Assembly (NCBI RefSeq): GCF_004310865.1
Contig: NZ_SIXI01000001.1
Location: forward strand, 620,001 to 684,000
Length of the DNA stretch: 64,000 bases
Source of the DNA: Aquabacterium lacunae
GTDB taxonomy: Bacteria > Pseudomonadota > Gammaproteobacteria > Burkholderiales > Burkholderiaceae_C
Direction: 5' to 3'
Part shown: piece by piece, positions 6,567 through 58,865 of the stretch
Layout: the number at the start of each line of letters is the position of its first letter
Numbering within the stretch: the first letter of the stretch is position 1
The notes under the pieces: generated by a model
The model's database searches: none
Told to the model about the DNA's origin: nothing
The model's input: only the letters and a program-made list of their open reading frames with translations
Made by a program: the position numbers and the translations under genes

Positions 6567-7468
6567 GCTTTCAGTCGTTTGTTGCCAATCTGATCCTTCG
6601 CTGGCAGTTCAAGAAGGCCGGGAAAGGCCCGATCGATGTCAAGTTCGCACGCAACAAGGTCAACAAGCTGGCCGACCGCTACCCGCCGCCGCCCAAAGAT
6701 GTGAAGCACACGCCGGTGCCGGCCAACCCTGCCAAGGGTCTGTGTGCCGCCGAATGGCTGAGCGTGGCCAACCCGCAGCGCACGGTGCTGTACTTTCACG
6801 GGGGCGGTTACTTCTTCTGCGGCCTGACCACCCATCGGCCCACCTGTGCCTACCTGGCCCGCAGCGGGCAAGCGCGCGTGCTGTCGGTCGATTACCGCAT
6901 GGCGCCTGAAAACCGCTTCCCTGCGGCCGTGGAAGACGCTGTGGCCTGGTGGAAAGAACTGCTGGCTCAGGGCACCCGCCCCGAGCAGGTGGTGTTCGCT
7001 GGCGACTCGGCCGGTGGCGGCCTGGCACTGGCCTGCCTGCTGGCTGCCAAAGCCCAGGGCCTGCCCCTGCCGGCGGGCGCCCTGCTGTATTCACCCTGGA
7101 CCGACCTGAGCTGTTCGGGCGAGACCATGCGCACCCTGGCCGACGTTGACGTGATGTTCAACCCGGAAGCCCTGCCCGAGGCCGCCAGCTTCTACGTGAC
7201 CCCGCAAGACCTGAAGAATCCGCTAGCCTCTCCGCTGTTCGGGGACCTGACGGGCCTGCCCGAGATGCTGGTGATGGCCAGCAACCACGAGATCCTGCTG
7301 TCCGACTCGATTCGCCTGGTCGACAAGGCCCGACAGCAAGGCGTGAAAATCGAATTCATCCGCCGCGACAAACTGCCCCACGTGTGGCCCACCATGGTCA
7401 TGCTGCCGGAAGCCCGCCGCGACCTGAAGCTCTCCGGCGAATTCGTTGCCCGCGTCACCCGCGGCTGA
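6563..7468 (+). CDS. HSL-type alpha/beta hydrolase (esterase)
   Basis: A 301-aa member of the hormone-sensitive-lipase-like esterases. It has the oxyanion motif HGGG (residues 79-82), the nucleophile elbow GDSAGG with Ser149, and C-terminal acid and His candidates in HEILLSDS and LPHVWP. The start overlaps the monooxygenase stop (ATGA), so translation is coupled. It would be expected to cleave the ester or lactone produced by the preceding enzyme; that pairing is common for BVMO operons. Complete and with no missing catalytic residue visible. Confidence 0.88.
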   Translation: MSFQSFVANLILRWQFKKAGKGPIDVKFARNKVNKLADRYPPPPKDVKHTPVPANPAKGLCAAEWLSVANPQRTVLYFHGGGYFFCGLTTHRPTCAYLARSGQARVLSVDYRMAPENRFPAAVEDAVAWWKELLAQGTRPEQVVFAGDSAGGGLALACLLAAKAQGLPLPAGALLYSPWTDLSCSGETMRTLADVDVMFNPEALPEAASFYVTPQDLKNPLASPLFGDLTGLPEMLVMASNHEILLSDSIRLVDKARQQGVKIEFIRRDKLPHVWPTMVMLPEARRDLKLSGEFVARVTRG

Positions 7469-7493
7469 TCCACCCCATTTCACATCCAGCACC

Positions 7494-8348
7494 ATGAAGA
7501 ATTTCAAGGGCAAGGTCGCCGCCATCACGGGCGCCGCATCGGGCATGGGCCGCTCACTGGCCATCGAACTGGCACGCCGTGGCTGCCACCTGTCACTGTC
7601 TGACGTGAATGAATCCGGGCTGGCGGAAACCGCCGCCATGGCCGGCAAGTTCGGCGTGAAGGTCACCAGCCAGAAGCTGGACGTGGCCAACCGCGAGGCC
7701 GTGTTCGCCTGGGCCGACCAGACGGTCATGGACCACGGCAAGTGCAACATGATCTTCAACAACGCCGGCGTGTCCCTGACCGTGAACCTGGACATCGTGC
7801 AGCAGCGCGATTTCGACTGGATCATGGGCATCAACTTCTGGGGCGTGGTCTACGGCACCCAGGCCTTCCTGCCGCACCTGCGCAAGGCCAATGAAGAAGG
7901 CCACATCATCAACACCTCCAGCCTGTTCGGCCTGATGTCGGTGCCCACCCAGGGCTGCTACAACGCCACCAAGTTCGCGGTGCGTGGCTACACCGAAGCC
8001 CTGCGCATGGAGCTGGAGATGGCTGGCGACAAGGTCAGCACCACCTGCGTGCACCCGGGCGGCATCGCCACCAACATCGCCCAGGCTGGCAAGATCGACC
8101 CGAACATGGAGCGGGTATCGGGCGTGAGCATCGAAAAGCAGCGCAAGATGGCCAACAAGATGATCAACCGCACCACGGCCGATTCCGCCGCGTTGCAGAT
8201 CCTCAAGGCCGTGGAAAACAACGAACGCCGCGTGCTGGTGGGCGCCGACGCCAAGGCCCTGGACAAGGTGGTGCGCCTGCTGGGCTCGGCCTACCAGGTG
8301 CTGATCATGCGTCAGCTGGGTCGCATGCGCCCGCGCCCGGCCCGCTGA
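7494..8348 (+). CDS. Short-chain dehydrogenase/reductase
   Basis: Classical SDR of 284 aa: cofactor motif TGAASGMG (residues 12-19), NNAG (89-92), catalytic Ser near 142-143, and YxxxK (Tyr156, Lys160). The ATG at 7494 starts MKNFKGKV, which gives the normal spacing to the glycine motif. It lies 25 nt after the esterase and is probably in the same operon. A likely job is interconversion of an alcohol and the ketone used by the Baeyer-Villiger enzyme; substrate and cofactor preference are inferred. Confidence 0.88.
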   Translation: MKNFKGKVAAITGAASGMGRSLAIELARRGCHLSLSDVNESGLAETAAMAGKFGVKVTSQKLDVANREAVFAWADQTVMDHGKCNMIFNNAGVSLTVNLDIVQQRDFDWIMGINFWGVVYGTQAFLPHLRKANEEGHIINTSSLFGLMSVPTQGCYNATKFAVRGYTEALRMELEMAGDKVSTTCVHPGGIATNIAQAGKIDPNMERVSGVSIEKQRKMANKMINRTTADSAALQILKAVENNERRVLVGADAKALDKVVRLLGSAYQVLIMRQLGRMRPRPAR

Positions 8349-11532: not shown

Positions 11533-12234
11533 TCAGGCCGCCAGGTCGAACACCAGCACCTCGGCGCCTTCGCCGCGGGCCAGGGTCAGCAGCGATTCGC
11601 CCTCGATCTTGAGCGCATCGCCCTGCGCCAGGGCCTGGCCCATCACCTCGATGCGGCCCCGCGCCACCTGCACATAGGCCTTGCGGGCCGGGTTCAGGGG
11701 TACCTCGGCGCGCTCGTCGCCATCGAACAGGCCGGCATAGATGCTGGCGTCCGAGTGAATGGTCACCGAGCCCTCGGCCCCATCGGGCGAGGCCACCAGG
11801 CGCAGCTTGCCGCGCTTGTCGGCTGCCTCGAAATGCTTCTGCTCGTAGCCCGGCGCAATGCCCTGGGCCTTGGGCTGGATCCAGATCTGCAGCAGGTGCA
11901 CCGGCTCGCGCGGGCTGGGGTTGACCTCGCTGTGCATGATGCCGGTGCCGGCGCTCATGCGCTGCACATCACCCGGCAGGATGGTCGCGCCATTGCCCAG
12001 GTTGTCGCGGTGGGCCAGCTGGCCTTCCAGCACGTAGGTCACGATCTCCATGTCGCGGTGGCCGTGCATGCCGAAGCCACGGGCGGGCGCCACCCGATCT
12101 TCGTTGATCACGCGCAGCGGGCCAAAGCCCATGTGCTGCAGGTCGTAGTAGTCACCGAAAGAAAAGCTGTGCTGGGCGTACAACCAGCCGTGGTCGGCCT
12201 GGCCCCGTTGGTCAGCGCGTCGCAGTGTCCACAT
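11533..12234 (-). CDS. Pirin-family bicupin protein (YhaK-like)
   Basis: A 233-aa pirin/quercetin-dioxygenase-like bicupin. The N-terminal cupin has the metal ligands in FGMHGHRDMEIVTYVLEG and the typical AGTGIMHSE segment. Members bind Fe(II) or a related metal, and some cleave quercetin in vitro; physiological roles are poorly known and often stress-linked. It is divergent from a LysR gene with a 128-bp shared gap, a frequent pairing that suggests direct regulation. Confidence 0.88.
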   Translation of the reverse strand: MWTLRRADQRGQADHGWLYAQHSFSFGDYYDLQHMGFGPLRVINEDRVAPARGFGMHGHRDMEIVTYVLEGQLAHRDNLGNGATILPGDVQRMSAGTGIMHSEVNPSPREPVHLLQIWIQPKAQGIAPGYEQKHFEAADKRGKLRLVASPDGAEGSVTIHSDASIYAGLFDGDERAEVPLNPARKAYVQVARGRIEVMGQALAQGDALKIEGESLLTLARGEGAEVLVFDLAA

Positions 12235-42863: not shown

Positions 42864-43231
42864 GTAGAACTCCGTCAAGCATCGGCGAACACGGCCGATA
42901 ACGGCATGTCGGTCCATGCCTGGGTCTCACCGAATGTATCGAGGGCCCTGCTTGAGAGGTCGCAGAAATGAGCAGTCTTTCACCTGTTCATGAAACGACA
43001 CAAGAACTTCGAAGATGTCAAGCGAAATCTCTAAAGTTCTCGTGAAGGCTCACCGATAAGCAAAACAACGGGCTCGCCAAAACGGGTTCGGGGTCCGGTT
43101 AGAAGACCTGGCACTGCCGGCAGCGATGCAGGCACCAAGGTTCAACTAACGCCGGGCGACAAAGGAAGTCGCAAGACGACCGGAATTGTCCGGCTCAGTG
43201 CCGGGATTGATCGAACCACTAGGAGTACACC
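42864..43231. other. 368-bp intergenic region between OGT and fliC1
   Basis: It holds the sigma-28 promoter of fliC1 at 43032-43059, leaving a leader of roughly 165 nt, and the unlocated promoter of the OGT gene on the other strand. Apart from a spaced 7-bp inverted repeat (AGAACTT at 43003-43009, AAGTTCT at 43034-43040, the second half overlapping the -35) I see nothing else, and no credible small gene. Confidence 0.5.
43032..43059 (+). promoter_or_regulatory. Sigma-28 (FliA) promoter of fliC1
   Basis: TAAA at 43032-43035 (in TAAAGTT) and ACCGATAA at 43052-43059, spacer 16 nt. Consensus is TAAA-N15-GCCGATAA, so only the first -10 base and the spacer differ. Confidence 0.82.
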
Positions 43232-44095
43232 ATGCCTTCTGTAGTCAACACCAACCTGATCTCGCTGAACTCGCAGCGCGCTCTGTCCTCCAGCCAATCG
43301 ACGCTGGCCACTTCGATGCAACGCCTGTCGTCGGGCCTGCGCGTCAACTCTGCCAAGGACGATGCCGCCGGTCTGGCCATCTCCGAACGCATGAACGCCC
43401 AGGTGCGCGGCATGAACGTCGCCATCCGCAATGCCAACGACGGCATCTCGCTGGTGCAGACGGCTGAAGGCGCGATGGCCAAGGTCGGCGACTCGCTGCA
43501 ACGCATGCGTGAACTGGCGGTGCAGGCCCGTAACGCCACCAACTCGTCGAGCGACAAGGATTCGCTGGACAAGGAGTTCGGCGAGCTGGCCAAGGAAATC
43601 CAGCGCGTGATCGGTGGCACCACCTTCAACGGCGTGAACATCATCGGCAGCAATGCGGGCACCTTGACCTTCCAGGTGGGCGCCAACACCACCACCGATG
43701 ACACGATCGACATCATCACGACCAACATGGGCTCAGCCACCGAGATCTCGGTGGTGGCAGGCACCAGCAACACCGGCCTGGGCCGCGCAACCATCAACAG
43801 CGCCGCCACGGTGGGCGACATCAAGGATGTGATCGACAACCTGGACGCGGCCATCAACTTCGTGAACTCCGAGCGCGCCACCATGGGTGCCTCGCAGAAC
43901 CGTTTCGATGCCGTGATCTCGAACCTGCAGGTGTCGGTGGAGAACCAGTCGGCCGCCAAGAGCCGCATCACCGACGCCGACTTCGCCGCAGAAACGGCGA
44001 ACCTGTCGAGAGCGCAGATCCTGCAGCAGGCCGGCAACGCGATGGTGGCGCAGGCCAACCAGCTGCCCCAGCAGGTGCTGTCCCTGCTGCGCTGA
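43232..44095 (+). CDS. fliC: Flagellin (first copy)
   Basis: A 287-aa flagellin made of the conserved D0/D1 parts: N-terminal VNTNLISLNSQRALSSSQ, RLSSGLRVNSAKDDAAGLAI, and C-terminal RITDADFAAETANLSRAQILQQAG ending VLSLLR. The central part (about residues 130-200) is short, Thr/Ser/Asn-rich, with no large D2/D3 domain; such surface Ser/Thr are typical glycosylation sites. Its own sigma-28 promoter and a terminator flank it. A 74-nt stretch (43532-43605) is identical to the second flagellin gene. Confidence 0.96.
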   Translation: MPSVVNTNLISLNSQRALSSSQSTLATSMQRLSSGLRVNSAKDDAAGLAISERMNAQVRGMNVAIRNANDGISLVQTAEGAMAKVGDSLQRMRELAVQARNATNSSSDKDSLDKEFGELAKEIQRVIGGTTFNGVNIIGSNAGTLTFQVGANTTTDDTIDIITTNMGSATEISVVAGTSNTGLGRATINSAATVGDIKDVIDNLDAAINFVNSERATMGASQNRFDAVISNLQVSVENQSAAKSRITDADFAAETANLSRAQILQQAGNAMVAQANQLPQQVLSLLR

Positions 44096-44308: not shown

Positions 44309-45172
44309 ATGCCTCAAACCATCAACACCAACCTCGTGTCGCTCAATGCACAGCGCAACTTGACAGGTTCGCAGGGTGCGCTGGCCACTTCCATGCAGCG
44401 TCTGTCGTCTGGCCTGCGCGTGAACTCCGCCAAGGACGACGCAGCCGGCCTGGCGATCGCCGAGCGAATGAACGCCCAGATCCGCGGCATGAACGTCGCA
44501 GCGCGCAACGCCAACGACGGCATCTCGATGGCCCAGGTGGCTGAAGGTGCGCTGAGCAAGGTGGGTGATGCCCTGCAGCGCATGCGTGAGCTGGCCGTGC
44601 AGGCCCGCAACGCCACCAACTCGTCGAGCGACAAGGATTCGCTGGACAAGGAGTTCGGCGAGCTGGCCAAGGAAATCCAGCGTGTGCTGGGCGGCACCAC
44701 CTTCAACGGCAAGGCCATCCTGGGCCCCGATGCCGGAACCCTGACCTTCCAGATCGGCGCCAACACCACCACCGACGACACGATCGACATTGGCACCGAG
44801 AACCTGCAGAGCTCCACGGTGATCACCGTGGTGGCTGGCACCGACAACACCGGCTCACTGCGCGGCACGATCAACTCGGCGGCCACGGTCGGCGACATCA
44901 AGGACGTGATCGACAACATCGATTCGGCCATCGACCTGGTCAACAACACCCGGGCCACCTTCGGCGCCACGCAGTCGCGCTTCGATGCCATCGTGTCCAA
45001 CCTGATGGTGTCGGCCGAAAACCAGACCGCAGCCCGCAGCCGCATCATGGACGCCGACTTCGCTGCCGAAACCGCGGCCATGTCCAGAGCACAGATCCTG
45101 CAGCAGGCCGGCAATGCGATGGTCGCCCAGGCCAACCAGCTGCCCCAGCAGGTGCTCAAGCTCCTGGGTTGA
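44309..45172 (+). CDS. fliC2: Flagellin (second copy)
   Basis: A 287-aa flagellin, the same length as the first copy and closely similar through D0/D1; differences cluster in the middle (NLQSSTVITVVAGTDNTGSLRG) and near the C-terminus (ends VLKLLG). The ATG at 44309 follows GGAG. Tandem copies permit filaments of mixed subunits. It is separated from fliC1 by a terminator, so it needs its own promoter, which is not obvious. Confidence 0.95.
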   Translation: MPQTINTNLVSLNAQRNLTGSQGALATSMQRLSSGLRVNSAKDDAAGLAIAERMNAQIRGMNVAARNANDGISMAQVAEGALSKVGDALQRMRELAVQARNATNSSSDKDSLDKEFGELAKEIQRVLGGTTFNGKAILGPDAGTLTFQIGANTTTDDTIDIGTENLQSSTVITVVAGTDNTGSLRGTINSAATVGDIKDVIDNIDSAIDLVNNTRATFGATQSRFDAIVSNLMVSAENQTAARSRIMDADFAAETAAMSRAQILQQAGNAMVAQANQLPQQVLKLLG

Positions 45173-46808: not shown

Positions 46809-46835
46809 TCAAGACCTTGACAGCAGTGCCGATAA
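46809..46835 (+). promoter_or_regulatory. Sigma-28 promoter of fliS-fliT-pilZ
   Basis: TCAA (46809-46812), 15-nt spacer, perfect GCCGATAA (46828-46835). It lies 36 nt before the fliS start. Confidence 0.75.
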
Positions 46836-46871: not shown

Positions 46872-47327
46872 ATGTACGCCACTGCCACCCAGACCTCCCC
46901 CAGCGTGTTTTCGTCGCGCTCTGTCTCGAACGCCTATCGCCAGATCGGCGTCGAGACAGGCATCGCCGGCGCTCACCCCCACAGCCTGATCACCATGCTG
47001 TTCGATGGGGCCCTCGAAGCCATCGCGCAAGCGCGCGGTGCGATCCAGAAGGGCGATATCGAGAGCAAGGGCCGCCTCATCGGCAAGGCCGTCAGCATCG
47101 TCGAGGAGGGCCTCAAAGGCGGCCTCGACCTGAAGGCGGGCGGCGAGATCGCCCAGAACCTGCATGCGCTGTACAGCTACATCGCCGGACGCCTGACCCA
47201 GGCCAACCTCCGCTCCGACGCCCAGGCGCTCGAAGAATGCGCCAGCCTGCTGACCCCCCTGCGTGACGCATGGGTCAGCATCCGCGCCGAAGCCTCCGCC
47301 CAGACCACTCACAAGGTGTCCGCATGA
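46872..47327 (+). CDS. fliS: Flagellar export chaperone FliS
   Basis: FliS binds the disordered C-terminus of flagellin in the cytoplasm and stops premature polymerisation. The 151-aa helical protein has the family segments NAYRQIGVETGIAGAHPHSLITMLFDGALEAI and LNLH-type LHALYSYIAGRLTQANL. Its stop overlaps the fliT start (ATGA). Confidence 0.94.
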   Translation: MYATATQTSPSVFSSRSVSNAYRQIGVETGIAGAHPHSLITMLFDGALEAIAQARGAIQKGDIESKGRLIGKAVSIVEEGLKGGLDLKAGGEIAQNLHALYSYIAGRLTQANLRSDAQALEECASLLTPLRDAWVSIRAEASAQTTHKVSA

Positions 47328-52828: not shown

Positions 52829-53521
52829 TCAGGTGGCCGCGCGCTGCGGCCGACGGCGCTTCCACCACAGCCCTGCCAAAACCACCGTGATCACGGCCGC
52901 AGCCAGCCAGGCCCAGTCGGTGGACGTGGCCGAACTGAGCAGGCGCGTGAGCTGCTCGGTGAACAGGGAAATGATGATGGTACCCGGCAGCAGACCCAAG
53001 GCCGTGCCAAGCACATAGTCACGAAGGCGCACTCGCAAGGCGCCGCAACTCAGGTTGATCAGCACGAAAGGTCCGACCGGGAACGCCCGTACGAACACCA
53101 CGGCCCAGAAGCCTCGGCGCTCGACCAGAGCGGCCAGCCCCTTGAGCTTGCCGGTGTTCGACCAGCTGTCCATGGCCTGCGCCCCCAGGAAGCGCCCGAC
53201 CATGTAAGTCACGGTGGCGCCACAGACCATGCCGCACAGGGCGTAGGCCATGCCGGGCCAGGGCCCGAAGATCAGGGCACCGGCCGTGACCAACAGGGCC
53301 ACCGGTGCTGCCATCAGGCAGGCCAGCACGTAGCCGCCCAGCACCAGCGCCGAGCCCATGGGCATGGCCAGCAGCTGCTTGCCCCAGCGGGCCAGGGCGG
53401 CGGGCTCCAGGTGCTGGCGAAACGTGTCGTCGCGCAGCGCCCAGCTGACGCCCGCGATCACGCCGACGTACAGCAGCAAAACGGCCCAGCGAAGGCCTTT
53501 GAGCGCAGGAGAAGCAGACAC
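52829..53521 (-). CDS. TVP38/TMEM64-family (VTT domain) membrane protein
   Basis: A 230-aa polytopic protein of the DedA-related VTT superfamily. Landmarks are the AAPVALLVTAGALIFGPWPGMAYALCG segment, the VGRFLGAQ segment, the re-entrant-loop region RRGFWAVVFVRAFPVGPFVLINLSCGA and GTALGLLPGTIIISLF. Related proteins scramble or transport lipids; the substrate here is unknown. It lies 108 nt after the LOV kinase on the same strand. Confidence 0.9.
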   Translation of the reverse strand: MSASPALKGLRWAVLLLYVGVIAGVSWALRDDTFRQHLEPAALARWGKQLLAMPMGSALVLGGYVLACLMAAPVALLVTAGALIFGPWPGMAYALCGMVCGATVTYMVGRFLGAQAMDSWSNTGKLKGLAALVERRGFWAVVFVRAFPVGPFVLINLSCGALRVRLRDYVLGTALGLLPGTIIISLFTEQLTRLLSSATSTDWAWLAAAVITVVLAGLWWKRRRPQRAAT

Positions 53522-53629: not shown

Positions 53630-56386
53630 TCAGTGGGTCGCGGCCAGATCTTCGCTGAGCGCCGCCGCACCCTGCCCCAGCACAGGCACCCACAGCACCA
53701 CGGTCGTGCCCGTGCCGTGCTGGCTGCTGAGCACCACCTGGCCCCCGTGCAGCTCCACGATCTCCTTGACGATGGTCATGCCCAGGCCGGTGCCCGGGAT
53801 GTTGCCCGAGGTGTCGGCCCGGAAGAAGCGCTCGAACACCCGGGCCAGCTGCTCATCGGTCATGCCGATGCCATGGTCGGTGACCCGAATGCCGCATTCC
53901 TTGTGGCCATCGCGGTCACGCCAGACCAGGTCCAGCTCGATGTCGCCACCCTGGGGCGAATACTTGTAGGCATTCGACAGCACATTGGTGATGGCCAGCG
54001 ACAGCTTCTCCGAATCCACATCGACATCGATCTGGCTGGGCGGCAGGCTGAGCTGCACCTTGCGGTCGTCGTTGTGGATCAGCAGGCCGCTGACCACCGA
54101 TTCGATGATGGGCTGCAATGTCTGACGCTTGCGCTTGAAGTCCTTGCCTCGGCGCGATTCGATCCGGGCCAGGTCGAGCAGTTCATTGACCAGGTTGATC
54201 AGGACACTGGCCTGTCGGTGAATGGTCGACAACATGTCCTGGCGACGTGCGTCGTCGAACTTGCGCTTGAGCAGCAACTCGGTGAACCCGAAAATCGAGG
54301 CCATCGGGGTGCGCAGCTCGTGCGCCGCCATCGACAGGAACTCGCTCTTCATGCGGTCAACTTCCAGCTCGTGGGTGATGTCGCGGAAGTACATGACGGT
54401 TTCGTTGTCATGCCCGCCATGTCGCACCCGGCGCACCAGCGTGCGTGGCGTGGGGCTGTGCAGGTGCAGCAACTCGCGGCGGCTGCCCGGCATGCCGGAA
54501 TCGTTTTCTGCGCCAGAGGTCTTGTCGTCCTTTTCCACCGAGGCGCACAGGGACATCAGGTGCTCTTCAAAGGCGTCCAGGCTCTGGCCCACCAGCGTGG
54601 TGGCGTCCAGGCCCGTCATGCGCTCGAAGGCCGGGTTCACGATGCTGAGCTCGCCGCGCTTGTCCAGCACCACAAAGCCATCGGGGCTGAGGTCGAACAC
54701 GGCATTGAGCCGCTCGGTGCGCAGGTTCAGCACCTGTTCGGCCGCGATCCGGTCGGTGATGTCCGATGCGATGCCCACGTAATGCGACACCTTCTCGTCC
54801 AGCCCGCGCACTGGCGAAATGGTCAGCTCGTTCCAGAACAGCGAGCCATCCTTGCGGTAGTTGCGCAGCACCACCTGGCAGGGGCGGCCCTGCTCGATGG
54901 CCAGGCGCATGGTGGCAATGGCGGGCTGCTCCCGGTCATCGCGCTGCAGGAAACGGCAGTTGTGGCCCAGCACTTCGTGCACCTCGTACCCCGTGATGCG
55001 CTCGAAGGCCGGGTTGGCGAAGATGATGGGCTGCCCAGGCAGGCACATGTCGGTGATGAACACGGCATCTTCCGACGATTCCAGGGCACGCTCACGCAGC
55101 AGCAATTCCTGTTCGGCCCACTTGGCGTCGGTGGTGTCGCGCACGATGAAGGTGTTGATCACGTCCTTGTCCAGCTCGGACCGGCTGGCCGACACCGCGA
55201 TCGGGAACTCGGTGCCTTCGGCGCGACGGCCTTTGCACTCGTACGACAGCACCCGGTTGGCAATGCCATGGTCGCGGAACCAGTCCTGCATCGATCGCCC
55301 TTCCAGGGCGGGCACCACAGCGCTCAGGGGCTTGCCGCGCAGGTCGTCCAGGTTCTGCCCGAAGATGCTGACGGTGGCCTGGTTGCACCACTGCACACGA
55401 GCCTGGTCGTCGACGGTGATGATGGCATCCGGGGCGGTGTCCACCACGGCGCGATTGCGCGATTCGCTGCGCTGCAGTTCAGCCGTGTTCTTGCGCGCCA
55501 GGGCCTGTGCCCGCAGCCGGATGGAAATCAGCACCACATAGGCGTACAGAGCCCCCAGGGTGGTCACGATGCCAGCTGCAGCAGCAATGCAGACACTGGC
55601 GTAGCGCGCCAGCCAGCTCATCCAGCCGTCCAGGTGCACGCGGCCTTCGAGGTGCAGCACCGGTCCGCCCAAGTCCCCTTGTGGCAGCAGCGCTGTGTGC
55701 CACACATGGGCCTCACCGGCTCCAGCGTCATCCTGATCGGAGGCCAACCGCGCAGACATCTGCCAGCCCGCCACATCCTGCAGCAAGGGCAGCAGAACGG
55801 TCTCGTCCACACGGGTGACCAGCCAGCCCGCCGGCCGGCCGTCGGGTTGCTCGGCCTTGGCCGGCTGCACCATGAGCCACAACACCCGGTTGCTGGTGTC
55901 GGTCAAGGCAGGGCTGATCAGGGGTTCGTCGTAGTGAGAGGCGGCCGCCACCTGCTGCGTCCAGAAGCGTTGCAACGAGGCGCGTGAGGTTTCGGCCAGT
56001 TTCTGCCAGCCCATGATCTGTGGGATCTCGCCGCCCGGGCGCAAGGCCACGAGCTCGCCCGGCGCGAAACCCGTGCCCGCGCTGGACGGCGGCAGTGGCC
56101 CCTGACTCCAGCGGTCGGCTGCGTGCACCAGCATCCAGCGACGGTACATGAGGCGGTCACCGGCCTGGGCCTGAATCTGGGAGGCCACGGCCCGAAAAGC
56201 CAGCTGCTCGCGGTGGAACGAGGTGTTCCACAAGGAAATGCACAACAGCAGCGTCAGCACGCTGCCCACCAGGACGATGCCCAGCACGGCCCGCCAGGGG
56301 CGACTGCCATCGGTCAGCTTCTCGAGCTTGTCCAGCGAGCTGAACACCAGCTTGAAGAAGAATCGATCTTTCGAGCGCTCGGTCAT
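53630..56386 (-). CDS. Membrane sensor histidine kinase with a LOV blue-light domain and two further PAS domains
   Basis: A 918-aa kinase. Transmembrane 1 lies at 33-52, a periplasmic sensor at about 53-260, transmembrane 2 at 263-288. PAS-1 spans about 310-425, a LOV domain about 433-548, PAS-3 about 555-675, then HisKA with His689 in AAHELRTPM and HATPase (NAYKYSP, DHGIGM, GTGLGM). The LOV domain has GHNCRFLQ with the adduct-forming Cys477 and the FMN contacts Asn476, Arg478, Gln481, Arg494, Asn509 and Asn519. The usual signalling Gln in GxQSDIT is Ala540. The receiver gene ends 60 nt upstream on the same strand. Likely integrates blue light with a periplasmic cue. Confidence 0.9.
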   Translation of the reverse strand: MTERSKDRFFFKLVFSSLDKLEKLTDGSRPWRAVLGIVLVGSVLTLLLCISLWNTSFHREQLAFRAVASQIQAQAGDRLMYRRWMLVHAADRWSQGPLPPSSAGTGFAPGELVALRPGGEIPQIMGWQKLAETSRASLQRFWTQQVAAASHYDEPLISPALTDTSNRVLWLMVQPAKAEQPDGRPAGWLVTRVDETVLLPLLQDVAGWQMSARLASDQDDAGAGEAHVWHTALLPQGDLGGPVLHLEGRVHLDGWMSWLARYASVCIAAAAGIVTTLGALYAYVVLISIRLRAQALARKNTAELQRSESRNRAVVDTAPDAIITVDDQARVQWCNQATVSIFGQNLDDLRGKPLSAVVPALEGRSMQDWFRDHGIANRVLSYECKGRRAEGTEFPIAVSASRSELDKDVINTFIVRDTTDAKWAEQELLLRERALESSEDAVFITDMCLPGQPIIFANPAFERITGYEVHEVLGHNCRFLQRDDREQPAIATMRLAIEQGRPCQVVLRNYRKDGSLFWNELTISPVRGLDEKVSHYVGIASDITDRIAAEQVLNLRTERLNAVFDLSPDGFVVLDKRGELSIVNPAFERMTGLDATTLVGQSLDAFEEHLMSLCASVEKDDKTSGAENDSGMPGSRRELLHLHSPTPRTLVRRVRHGGHDNETVMYFRDITHELEVDRMKSEFLSMAAHELRTPMASIFGFTELLLKRKFDDARRQDMLSTIHRQASVLINLVNELLDLARIESRRGKDFKRKRQTLQPIIESVVSGLLIHNDDRKVQLSLPPSQIDVDVDSEKLSLAITNVLSNAYKYSPQGGDIELDLVWRDRDGHKECGIRVTDHGIGMTDEQLARVFERFFRADTSGNIPGTGLGMTIVKEIVELHGGQVVLSSQHGTGTTVVLWVPVLGQGAAALSEDLAATH

Positions 56387-56446: not shown

Positions 56447-56824
56447 TCAGGCCACCTGACTGACCATGCCTTCCACGCGGTCGATCAGCTCCAGCGGGCT
56501 GAAAGGTTTGACCAGGTAGGCGTCGGCGCCTGCCGCCTCGCCCATCTCCAGGTCGCTGGCCTGCCCGCGGGCCGTCAGCATGATGACCTTGATGTGCCGG
56601 AGTGCAGGGTCCTGCTTGATGCGCTGGCAGACCTGGTAGCCATCCAGCAGGCCGGGCATCATCACATCCAGCAGCATCAGATGGGGGTTCACAGCCTTGG
56701 CCATGGCCAGCCCCGATTCACCATCGTGTGCCTCGTGGATTTCGAAATCGCCAAACTCCAGCGTCATGCGGATGAGTTTGCAGATGTCTGGCTGATCTTC
56801 TGTGATCAGGATCCGATGGGTCAT
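56447..56824 (-). CDS. Stand-alone CheY-like response regulator
   Basis: A 125-aa single receiver domain with every key residue: acidic pair Glu9/Asp10, phospho-acceptor Asp53 in LLDVMMPG, Thr in MLTARG and Lys106 in YLVKPFSP. No output domain, so it acts by protein-protein contact or phosphotransfer. Located between the kinase-like protein and the LOV kinase, it is the natural phosphate acceptor of the LOV kinase. Confidence 0.9.
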   Translation of the reverse strand: MTHRILITEDQPDICKLIRMTLEFGDFEIHEAHDGESGLAMAKAVNPHLMLLDVMMPGLLDGYQVCQRIKQDPALRHIKVIMLTARGQASDLEMGEAAGADAYLVKPFSPLELIDRVEGMVSQVA

Positions 56825-56900
56825 GGGGACCTCCTGGGGTCGGGTCAGATGGGTGCTTGACTGGTTGTCGACCGTTCAAGCTCACCCTGTAGGGCGCGTG

Positions 56901-58010
56901 TCAGTTGCCCTTGCCAGTGGTGGCTGGCGTGCGTGACATCTTGCGCGCCATCAGCTGGGCCATGTCTCGGGCATAGCGCTGGGCCTGCTCTACCGACAGC
57001 TGGGCATCCTGGGTGGCCGGTGCACCCGCTGGAATCTCCATCACGAAATCGACCGAGTCGAAGTCGTCTTCGATGCGCACATTGCCGCCATGCTGCTCCA
57101 GGATGCGCTGGCTCAGGGCCAGGCCAATGCCCGGGCGGGTGGTGCCCTGCTCGTAGCCATCGCCCACTCCGAAGGGCACAAAGGCGCCACGTCGCTCGTG
57201 GTTGGACACAAACAGGCCGCGGTTGCGCGCGCGCAGCAGCAAGCGGGTGCCAAGGGCCGAGATCGACAGCTCGATCAGGCCACCTTGCTGGGCGCTGCGG
57301 ATGGTGTGTTCGAGGTACTCGACGAGCGCTTTGGACAACCAGGCGCTGCTGCCATAGACCGCCGGCAGATCGCCCTCCAGGCCCTCGGTGGCCACTGTCA
57401 CCTCACGGGACTGGGCCAGGGGCATGGTCTCGCCCAGCACCTGCTTGAGCAGCTCTACCATGTTGATTCGTTCATCGCGCTGGATAGCGCCCTGTCCGAA
57501 CACGCTGACCAGGTCTCGCAGCTTGCCCAGCTTGCCCGACAGGGCTCGGGCCTCCTGCACCAGCGGCAGCAGCTCGGGGTTGGCGCTGTTGGCCTGGGCC
57601 ACGCTTATGGCCGTTGGCATCTTCTGGATCAGGTGTTCGATGGGTGCTGCCATCTCGGCCTCGATGTAGCCGATCAGGTTTTCCAGCGCCGACGAATACC
57701 AGCGCTCTTCGCTGACGTTGTTGAGCACCAGCATCAGGTCGCCACCCACCGGGGCATTGATCACCACCGCCCGGATGGTGTCAGGGTGTTCTTCCTGCGT
57801 GGTCAGCTCGAACTGGAAGGGCAGCTTGATCAGGTCCTGCCCCGCGGCCTTGACCGTGCGTTCAGCCACCGGGTCCATCAAGGGACTGCCCAGCAGACAA
57901 GGCGTCATCTGCACGGCGGCCTTGTTGGCATAGCGCACCGTGCCATTGCGTTGCAACCAGATGATGCCGCTTTTGACCTGGTCGAACATCAGTCGGAAGG
58001 CGTCATTCAT
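56901..58010 (-). CDS. Histidine-kinase-like protein lacking the phospho-acceptor His (probable pseudokinase)
   Basis: A 369-aa soluble protein with an N-terminal PAS-like domain (MFDQVKSGIIWLQRNGTVRYANKAA), a helical dimerisation segment and an ATPase-like domain. In the helix where kinases have HELRTP, this protein reads AEMAAP (Ala118 in the His place). The N-box is degraded (EYLEHTIRSA), while the last G-box is kept (PGIGLALSQRILEQHGG). So phosphotransfer by the normal route is unlikely; it may be a scaffold or allosteric partner. The start at 58010 follows GGAG. It overlaps the upstream HTH-receiver gene by 8 nt. Confidence 0.8.
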   Translation of the reverse strand: MNDAFRLMFDQVKSGIIWLQRNGTVRYANKAAVQMTPCLLGSPLMDPVAERTVKAAGQDLIKLPFQFELTTQEEHPDTIRAVVINAPVGGDLMLVLNNVSEERWYSSALENLIGYIEAEMAAPIEHLIQKMPTAISVAQANSANPELLPLVQEARALSGKLGKLRDLVSVFGQGAIQRDERINMVELLKQVLGETMPLAQSREVTVATEGLEGDLPAVYGSSAWLSKALVEYLEHTIRSAQQGGLIELSISALGTRLLLRARNRGLFVSNHERRGAFVPFGVGDGYEQGTTRPGIGLALSQRILEQHGGNVRIEDDFDSVDFVMEIPAGAPATQDAQLSVEQAQRYARDMAQLMARKMSRTPATTGKGN

Positions 58011-58701
58011 GATGGGCTCCTTGGGTTGCAGCCTGACGCTGCAGCAGACAACGGCCGGCGCGGATGGCCAGCGCTTCAGGACTGACCGGCTGGTACAGCA
58101 CCTGCACACCACCCGGCAGGTTCTGGGCCAAGCCGGCTGACAGATCGTTGGAAGGCAGAAGGGCGATCACTTCGAGGCGCGGCAGCACCTCGCAGCGCTC
58201 TAGCGTGCGCAGCATGTCCAGGCCGTCCATGCCAGGCAGCTCGAGGGTGGTCACCAGCAGGTCGGGCGCATCGCGCCCCACCATCAGCAACGCCACATAG
58301 CCGTTGTCGGCGACCTGCACATCCACCGCTGAGCCAAACACCTCCAGCGCCGACTGACACCCTTGCAACCAACTGGTGTCACGCGAGACCAGCAAAAGCT
58401 TCATGGGCGCTGCGGGCATTTCGGCAGTCGGGGCTGCTGTGGCCGGCAATTCAACTGGCGCCAAGGCCGGCACGGCGCGCAAGGCAGAGACTGGCTCGGC
58501 ATCAGCCAGCCCCATGCTCATGGCCAGGGCCTCGACCGCGTTGTAGGGAATTCGACGGTGACCGCCGGGTGTGCGGGCAGCGGGCAGGATGCTGGCCTCC
58601 ACCCACAGCTGCACGGTGCGCAGCGAGACCCCCAGCCTCAAGGCGGCCTCCCGGGTGGTCAGCATGCGGGCGCCGGGGCCCAGGGCAATGACTTGAGACA
58701 T
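58003..58701 (-). CDS. MerR-type HTH protein fused to a degenerate receiver domain
   Basis: A 232-aa protein. Residues 12-60 form a MerR/excisionase-like winged HTH (LTTREAALRLGVSLRTVQLWVEASILP, then TPGGHRRIP). After an Ala/Pro linker, residues 100-222 follow the receiver fold but lack its chemistry: the acidic pair is SR (106-107), the phospho-Asp is Thr152 in LLVTTLELPGMDG, and the Lys is Gln204. It is therefore a pseudo-receiver, probably controlled by protein contact. The start at 58701 has GAGG upstream. First gene of the four-gene module and its likely transcription factor. Confidence 0.82.
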   Translation of the reverse strand: MSQVIALGPGARMLTTREAALRLGVSLRTVQLWVEASILPAARTPGGHRRIPYNAVEALAMSMGLADAEPVSALRAVPALAPVELPATAAPTAEMPAAPMKLLLVSRDTSWLQGCQSALEVFGSAVDVQVADNGYVALLMVGRDAPDLLVTTLELPGMDGLDMLRTLERCEVLPRLEVIALLPSNDLSAGLAQNLPGGVQVLYQPVSPEALAIRAGRCLLQRQAATQGAHHE

Positions 58702-58865
58702 GGTGCGTACCTCTCGATCTGTCACCGGCGGGTGCCGGTTCGGTTCGCGTTTTCATTTTTGCGAGAACTGGCAGATCTGAGGGGTTTATCGGCCGTGCAC
58801 CGGGCGCCTTGACGTGACGAATTGGCGCTTTGTGCGTTTGTGTGCGCACCTTCCCTCCACCTTGG

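Follow-up and report, generated by a model that had tools for sequence, protein, structure and literature searches.

A predicted four-gene signalling module of Burkholderiales that combines a pseudokinase family with a helix-turn-helix regulator whose receiver is degenerate in Aquabacterium

Introduction

NifL, a protein with a PAS domain and a kinase-like part, controls a transcription factor, the sigma-54 activator NifA, by binding it. RetS is a kinase-like protein that acts by contact on the hybrid kinase GacS, and it is not known to belong to a gene cluster of the kind described below. In CmrRST of C. difficile, a regulator with a pseudo-receiver shares an operon with a normal kinase and a response regulator, according to excerpts of a 2025 perspective, which in the same excerpts calls the on/off switching of pseudo-receivers a mystery (PMC12632262). 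Here we analyse a cluster of four signalling genes, A to D, in 64,000 nucleotides from Aquabacterium lacunae (positions 620,001 to 684,000 of contig NZ_SIXI01000001.1, assembly GCF_004310865.1). This stretch is called the window, and coordinates refer to it unless a relative is named.

A first-pass annotation of the window had placed a pseudo-receiver regulator and a pseudokinase-like protein next to a kinase and a single-domain receiver, and had read them as one pathway passing light or a periplasmic signal through protein contacts. We confirm the observation and partly support the interpretation; transfer of a signal by contact among the module proteins is possible. The annotation had also known of no system with this composition, and in the open-licence literature we found no description of the composition, of a family-wide B or of a link between B and A. 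The sequences point to A-B-C-D as an accessory signalling module that is conserved in Burkholderiales and their relatives and in which B-C-D is inherited as a cassette. We tentatively favour a reading in which D would phosphorylate C, and the non-catalytic B would couple the state of D and C to A, a sigma-28-expressed, phosphate-independent helix-turn-helix (HTH) regulator.

Results

The four genes lie on the minus strand in the order A (58003-58701), B (56901-58010), C (56447-56824) and D (53630-56386). A and B overlap by 8 nt (58003-58010), and gaps of 76 nt and 60 nt separate B from C and C from D. The reading frames, coordinates and overlap first reported were correct; D falls outside the interval then described (56447-58701).

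We compared 66 B rows, consisting of the window and 65 loci from a scan of named genomes. The scan was built on 11 seed rows, which came from the window and P0002 matches. C was found near B in 64 loci, D in 60 and A, within 9 kb, in 50, and 48 loci held all four genes. The flanks of the four-gene loci differed between lineages. As the first-pass annotation had anticipated, the genes are not scattered in relatives: B loci span Aquabacterium, Sphaerotilus, Rubrivivax, Piscinibacter, Ideonella, Pelomonas, Curvibacter, Rhodoferax, Rhodocyclaceae and others, and Aquabacterium commune DSM 11901 and A. fontiphilum CS-6 are among the strains with all four genes. It is very improbable that unrelated signalling genes came together in one island by accident. 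A does sometimes lie several genes off or elsewhere in the genome, as such an accident would allow, but the co-occurrence, with all four genes in 48 of 66 loci amid lineage-specific flanks, disfavours it.

Within the genus, strict thresholds applied to 42 Aquabacterium genomes gave A in 36, B in 20, C in 21 and D in 20. The cut for B was our own (20 matches at or below 1e-108, the next at 4e-24), and those for D and C were 1e-130 and 1e-42; the A match of genome G204 is partial (residues 91-224), and the B of G225 is a divergent copy on another contig. All 20 genomes with B carried C and 19 carried D (Fisher tests, P=8e-11 and 1e-9, uncorrected for kinship like all those below). A was present in 20/20 genomes with B and in 16/22 without it (P=0.02). 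In a family sample of 200 genomes, A occurred in 75, and in 10 of the 11 that have B (P=2.8e-4). Sixteen B loci had no counted A nearby. For 15 of these the genomes were checked and all 15 carry A elsewhere; at the remaining locus, L075, a fragment of A lies at the contig edge.

Gene B encodes 369 amino acids, with a PAS domain, a DHp/ATPase-like pseudokinase part and a C-terminal tail. In Pfam and NCBIfam profile searches it matched HATPase_c (1e-7) and, slightly under the cut-off, PAS (5e-4), and there was no match to HisKA. Ala118 occupies the phospho-His position (EAEMAAP), the N-box region reads EYLEHTI with His235 at its Asn, and Asn263 stands for the G1 Asp, which bears out the earlier view of a PAS/kinase-like protein with Ala for His and a broken N-box. 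Among the 66 rows, the phospho-His column is without His in 65 (the exception is L098; about seven rows align poorly there, and L126-L132 are poorly aligning rows), and the N-box Asn and G1 Asp occur together in L097 alone. Window B is 68-73% identical to B of named Aquabacterium loci and 75% identical to that of a Burkholderiales metagenome-assembled genome (MAG).

The phospho-His, N-box Asn and G1 Asp of a HisKA histidine kinase are thus missing, and the PAS-DHp-CA fold is retained in the predicted model (mean predicted local distance difference test score 76.7; about 55-72 in DHp). Whole histidine kinases, DivL, the NifL-NifA complex 9qq6 (rank 19) and RetS 7n0e were among the structures matching this model. 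Since ordinary kinases tie with the others, the fold cannot choose between likeness to DivL, NifL or RetS. Against the NifL family TIGR02938 (NCBIfam), B reached 23.3 bits, below the cut-off of 242. The tail motif (T/A)GAP...QAQ.YA.D is conserved across loci and also common to the seeds; this conservation is partly selected for, because the scan patterns were taken from B's own tail and HATPase end. Judged by its residues, B is a dedicated pseudokinase family and not a broken gene. In the divergent B-like proteins of L126 and L129-L132, two neighbouring cysteines directly precede the QAQ.YA.D motif, possibly as a metal or redox site.

Gene A encodes 232 amino acids with a MerR/BldC-like HTH (residues 13-64) and a receiver part (residues 100-222). 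It matched the Pfam profiles HTH_17 (9e-11), MerR (2e-7) and Response_reg (4e-9), and stayed below the cut-off of the BldC family NF033787 (NCBIfam; 35.4 bits against 77), which it matched through the HTH part alone. Its catalytic positions hold S106-R107 for the acid pair, T152 for the phospho-Asp, L182 for the Thr/Ser and Q204 for the Lys. A therefore has none of the residues of a phosphorylatable response regulator, and profiles and residue positions agree with the first description of a MerR-type HTH joined to a receiver without acid pair, Asp (Thr152) and Lys (Gln204). The receiver fold, the loss of the phosphotransfer residues and purifying selection, the last seen in relatives, identify it as a pseudo-receiver.

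Among the 50 A rows near B, the receiver is intact in 38 and degenerate in 12, namely the window, L068-L074, L076 and L077 (Aquabacterium and Burkholderiales MAGs) and the Sphaerotilus-type rows L078 and L079. The Sphaerotilus-type proteins retain the Asp but neither the acid pair nor the Lys. We tabulated A residues for 34 of the 36 A-bearing Aquabacterium genomes (G204 and G205 were left out; G202 corresponds to row L076). The phospho-Asp is missing in 32 of the 34 (Asn in 22, His in 6, Thr in 4) and the Lys in 33; G211 has an intact receiver, and G215 keeps the Asp and has lost the Lys. In a tree of 65 A proteins, in which rows L051 and L164 are wrongly labelled, the Aquabacterium and Sphaerotilus-type rows all cluster together. 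A in Aquabacterium is, on this predicted chemistry, a clade-specific HTH regulator with a pseudo-receiver that has lost the usual Asp chemistry, and as it has no phosphate site, a signal to A must come another way. In Rubrivivax benzoatilyticus (L096), a gene for a receiver-Hpt protein (6892-7617 of that locus) overlaps the A gene by 4 nt, which suggests an alternative phosphorelay partner of an intact A.

We ruled out the idea of local defects in A and B because both losses recur across many genomes: close homologues lack the His in 65/66 B rows, and A is degenerate in 33 of the 34 tabulated Aquabacterium genomes, with 38/50 B-linked receivers intact overall. According to excerpts of the 2025 perspective (PMC12632262), the His is missing in 0.9% of HisKA domains and the Asp in 2.0% of receivers. 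These low rates, together with the sharing of both losses by many genomes, disfavour chance loss.

Gene C encodes a CheY-like single-domain receiver with all of E/D/D/T/K present, and this catalytic set is complete in 63 of 64 C rows. Gene D encodes two hydrophobic segments (residues 34-52 and 271-289), a PAS, a LOV and a second PAS domain, and a canonical HisKA and HATPase core. The core is complete (H689, N805, D837, G867), and its His-Glu is present in 60/60 D rows. PAS, HisKA and HATPase profiles matched D, and the LOV domain (54752-55096) was LOV-like by YtvA and blue-light kinase models, under their cut-offs (Pfam/NCBIfam). The adduct Cys477 lies in GHNCRFLQ (codon 54956-54958). The position of the conserved signalling Gln is Ala in the window (GIASDIT) and in L068-L070, Gln or Ala in related Aquabacterium rows and Leu in most Rubrivivax rows. 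D thus has the adduct Cys of a LOV photoreceptor kinase and lacks its signalling Gln. The earlier description of C and D as fully canonical holds for C and for the kinase core and LOV Cys of D, and is too strong for D as a whole because its Gln position is Ala. By its residues D would be a LOV-bearing sensor kinase, with flavin binding and light gating as predicted features at most.

The LOV Cys column holds Cys in 32 of 60 D rows (L101, L121 and L128 are doubtful), and Curvibacter and Rhodoferax rows are without it. Between C and D, relatives carry genes for H-NOX (L095), HD-domain (L085), phosphonate-type binding (L110) and Peripla_BP_6 (L080) proteins. Light as a general signal was ruled out by the Curvibacter and Rhodoferax rows and these other sensor genes, and the proposal of light as the defining input does not hold. 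The sensor input was probably swapped between lineages at the D end, among LOV, H-NOX and periplasmic ligand proteins. In Ideonella paludis (L095), the H-NOX (HNOB) gene (11580-12122 of that locus) stands immediately before the D-type kinase.

Upstream of A, 85 nt before its start codon, lies TCAAG-N14-GCCGATAA (58786-58812, minus strand), the pattern of a sigma-28 (FliA)-type promoter. The exact pattern occurs three times in the window, at A, at a flagellin gene (42875-42901, plus strand) and at fliS (46809-46835, plus strand). Chance was estimated at 0.02 with up to one mismatch allowed; a single additional site, with one mismatch, falls within the flagellin gene on the opposite strand. The names of the flagellin gene (43232-44095, followed in tandem by a second at 44309) and of fliS (46872-47327) were assigned by us from the protein sequences. 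By this pattern A is a predicted member of the sigma-28 (FliA) regulon; a sigma-70 scan found no site. Exact GCCGATAA occurs within 220 nt upstream of A in 13/34 Aquabacterium cases and 9/356 control genes, and the full match in 5/34 (window, G201, G206, G236, G211) and 11/356; Fisher tests on these counts again ignore kinship, and the control set contains one A gene (L185). Similar sites in other genera were weak (B 4/58, A 2/49, C 0/65, D 1/74, others 12/760).

A conserved 15-bp element, CTCGCAAAAATGAAA (58751-58765, minus strand), is a candidate operator upstream of A. Of the 42 Aquabacterium genomes, 24 contain YTYGMAAAAMTGAAA, each a single time and always 3-90 nt upstream of the A match, whether or not B-C-D is present; the remaining genomes have variants or none. 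It was found in none of the six Aquabacterium genomes without an A match, and a reversed control pattern gave two matches in total. We dropped the reading as an upstream open reading frame, since the element stands at varying distances from A. A mere -35 of the sigma-28 promoter is an insufficient explanation, as the element persists without a following GCCGA and sits downstream of the promoter in the window. The element may be A's own operator.

Selection was compared by the ratio of nonsynonymous to synonymous substitution rates (dN/dS), using simple NG86 estimates with no tree correction. Within clades without B-C-D, dN/dS was 0.02-0.13 for the A receiver and 0-0.06 for the HTH. This purifying selection indicates that the pseudo-receiver has a job independent of the cassette. 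Strict dependence of A on B-C-D was ruled out, as A persists alone under such selection, and the single obligatory pathway proposed at first is not borne out, as 16 of the 36 A-bearing Aquabacterium genomes are without B. In the ten other loci L068-L077, values were lowest for the HTH (0.01), the B tail (0.07), C (0.08) and B-PAS (0.09), followed by B-CA (0.22), D-LOV (0.23), the A receiver (0.26), the D kinase core (0.27), B-DHp (0.33) and the D N-terminus (0.64). Within B, constraint thus falls on the PAS domain and tail; of the parts compared, the sensor end of D is the most rapidly changing. Pairs with the window gave higher values everywhere but in the D kinase core, among them 0.53 for B-DHp. 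Compared with the G201 clade, the window A receiver (58036-58404) had 0.48-0.61 and the window HTH 0.02-0.05.

These rates bear on two alternatives. A could be constitutive and set by its amount through the sigma-28 promoter and the element, D and C being an ordinary pair that acts on other targets, and B a passenger kinase in decay. The persistence of A with a constrained receiver where B-C-D are absent, the conserved promoter-side element and the fast A receiver and B-DHp of the window are what this would predict, but the B family is conserved (dN/dS of 0.07-0.09 in PAS and tail, no His in 65/66) and B-C-D are rarely found without A, so we regard it as improbable. An arrangement like that of DivL is unlikely. 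D would phosphorylate C, C~P would dock on B, and B would restrain or stimulate D or another kinase, A being separately controlled. As in DivL, a His-less kinase fold is encoded beside a single-domain receiver gene, but DHp is the least constrained part of B (0.33 against 0.09 for PAS and 0.07 for the tail) and the association of B with A would be left unexplained.

Mirror-tree distance correlations, likewise uncorrected for kinship, were 0.84 for B-C, 0.74 for B-D and 0.72 for C-D. A further possibility, modelled on NifL or BluF, is that A is turned off or on by direct binding of B (or D), C serving as a timer or phosphate sink. B does go with A, the NifL-NifA complex is among the fold matches of B, and the degenerate BluF directly antagonises the MerR-like BluR, according to excerpts of a published account (PMC3509220). 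However, A occurs without B in 16 genomes and the A-B distance correlation is low (0.38), and we give this possibility a small probability.

In Aquabacterium the gene order at this site varies little: SpoT, GreB (opposite strand), A, then B-C-D or nothing, then a gene for a VTT-domain (TVP38-like) membrane protein (52829-53479, minus strand, in the window). The VTT gene directly follows A in 14 of the 16 genomes with A and without B; of the other two, G210 has A-C and G211 other genes. Behind D it was called in 8 of the 10 cassette loci L068-L077 (L070 ends first, and L076, A. fontiphilum, has none there). Mapped onto an A tree of 37 rows, B must switch between presence and absence 8 times, well-supported branches forcing at least 5 of these changes, and the window itself is nested in a clade without B. 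We read these changes mostly as losses, with regain also possible. In L186 (contig C159 of G225), a divergent B-C pair and a kinase lie beside genes that we read from their sequences as ATP-synthase-like, and a different contig (L187) carries A-C at the customary SpoT site.

Discussion

The coupling that we tentatively favour would proceed in four steps predicted from sequence, the step from B to A being the weakest-supported. Sigma-28 would make A together with the late flagellar genes, and A would bind the 15-bp element at its own promoter. D, whose stimulus would differ between lineages, would phosphorylate C. B, without phosphotransfer, would then link the state of D and C to A by binding, via its PAS domain and C-terminal tail, which we propose as its binding parts and which are under the strongest constraint in B. 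Where the A receiver is intact, A may be a further direct phosphorylation target of D. That route would be gone in Aquabacterium, where A would be a phosphate-independent regulator tuned by the cassette where the cassette is retained. A more far-reaching version is doubtful: the output side would do without phosphate, D and C signalling by contact through B to the pseudo-receiver of A within the sigma-28 flagellar regulon, with the cassette mostly lost, the output selected and the sensors swapped.

Several findings weigh against this coupling. Of the 36 Aquabacterium genomes with A, 16 have no B, so B cannot be the sole controller of A. Three nearly complete Aquabacterium genomes (G208, G218, G226) are without any A, G185 of the family sample has B and no A match at 1e-40, and outside Aquabacterium A often lies several genes off or elsewhere. 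The A distance matrix correlates weakly with those of B, C and D (0.38-0.43, uncorrected for kinship), and B-DHp, the usual receiver-docking part, is the fastest-evolving domain of B. The fast evolution of the window's A receiver could be decay. On the promoter side, the full sigma-28 match is present in only 5/34 A upstream regions and the exact -10 in 13/34.

Aquabacterium nevertheless offers a clade in which an intact receiver turned into a pseudo-receiver beside a conserved pseudokinase. Its species also form a natural comparison set: 20 genomes carry the HTH regulator together with B and 16 carry it but lack B, at a shared syntenic site in almost every case. With a candidate operator and a candidate regulon, the switching of a pseudo-receiver becomes directly testable.

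Pseudokinases and pseudo-receivers are already known; what appears new is their combination, the B family and the link of B to A. DivL, of the Caulobacter DivK/DivL/CckA system, resembles B in its kinase fold with a replaced phospho-His, its PAS input and its link to a single-domain receiver. In contrast to B, it belongs to the cell cycle of alphaproteobacteria and carries several PAS domains; B carries one, has a C-terminal signature of its own, and is encoded in an operon-like cluster together with a sensor kinase and an HTH pseudo-receiver. NifL-NifA is alike in the fold match 9qq6, but A is a MerR/BldC-HTH pseudo-receiver and B scores far under the NifL cut-off; RetS-GacS is alike in the fold match 7n0e, but its target is a hybrid kinase. 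The E. coli blue-light pathway BluF-BluR, like A and B, ties a degenerate signalling enzyme to a MerR-like regulator, but uses a BLUF-EAL protein and has neither kinase nor receivers. CmrRST, finally, differs from the module in its OmpR-type regulators and in having no pseudokinase and no MerR-type HTH.
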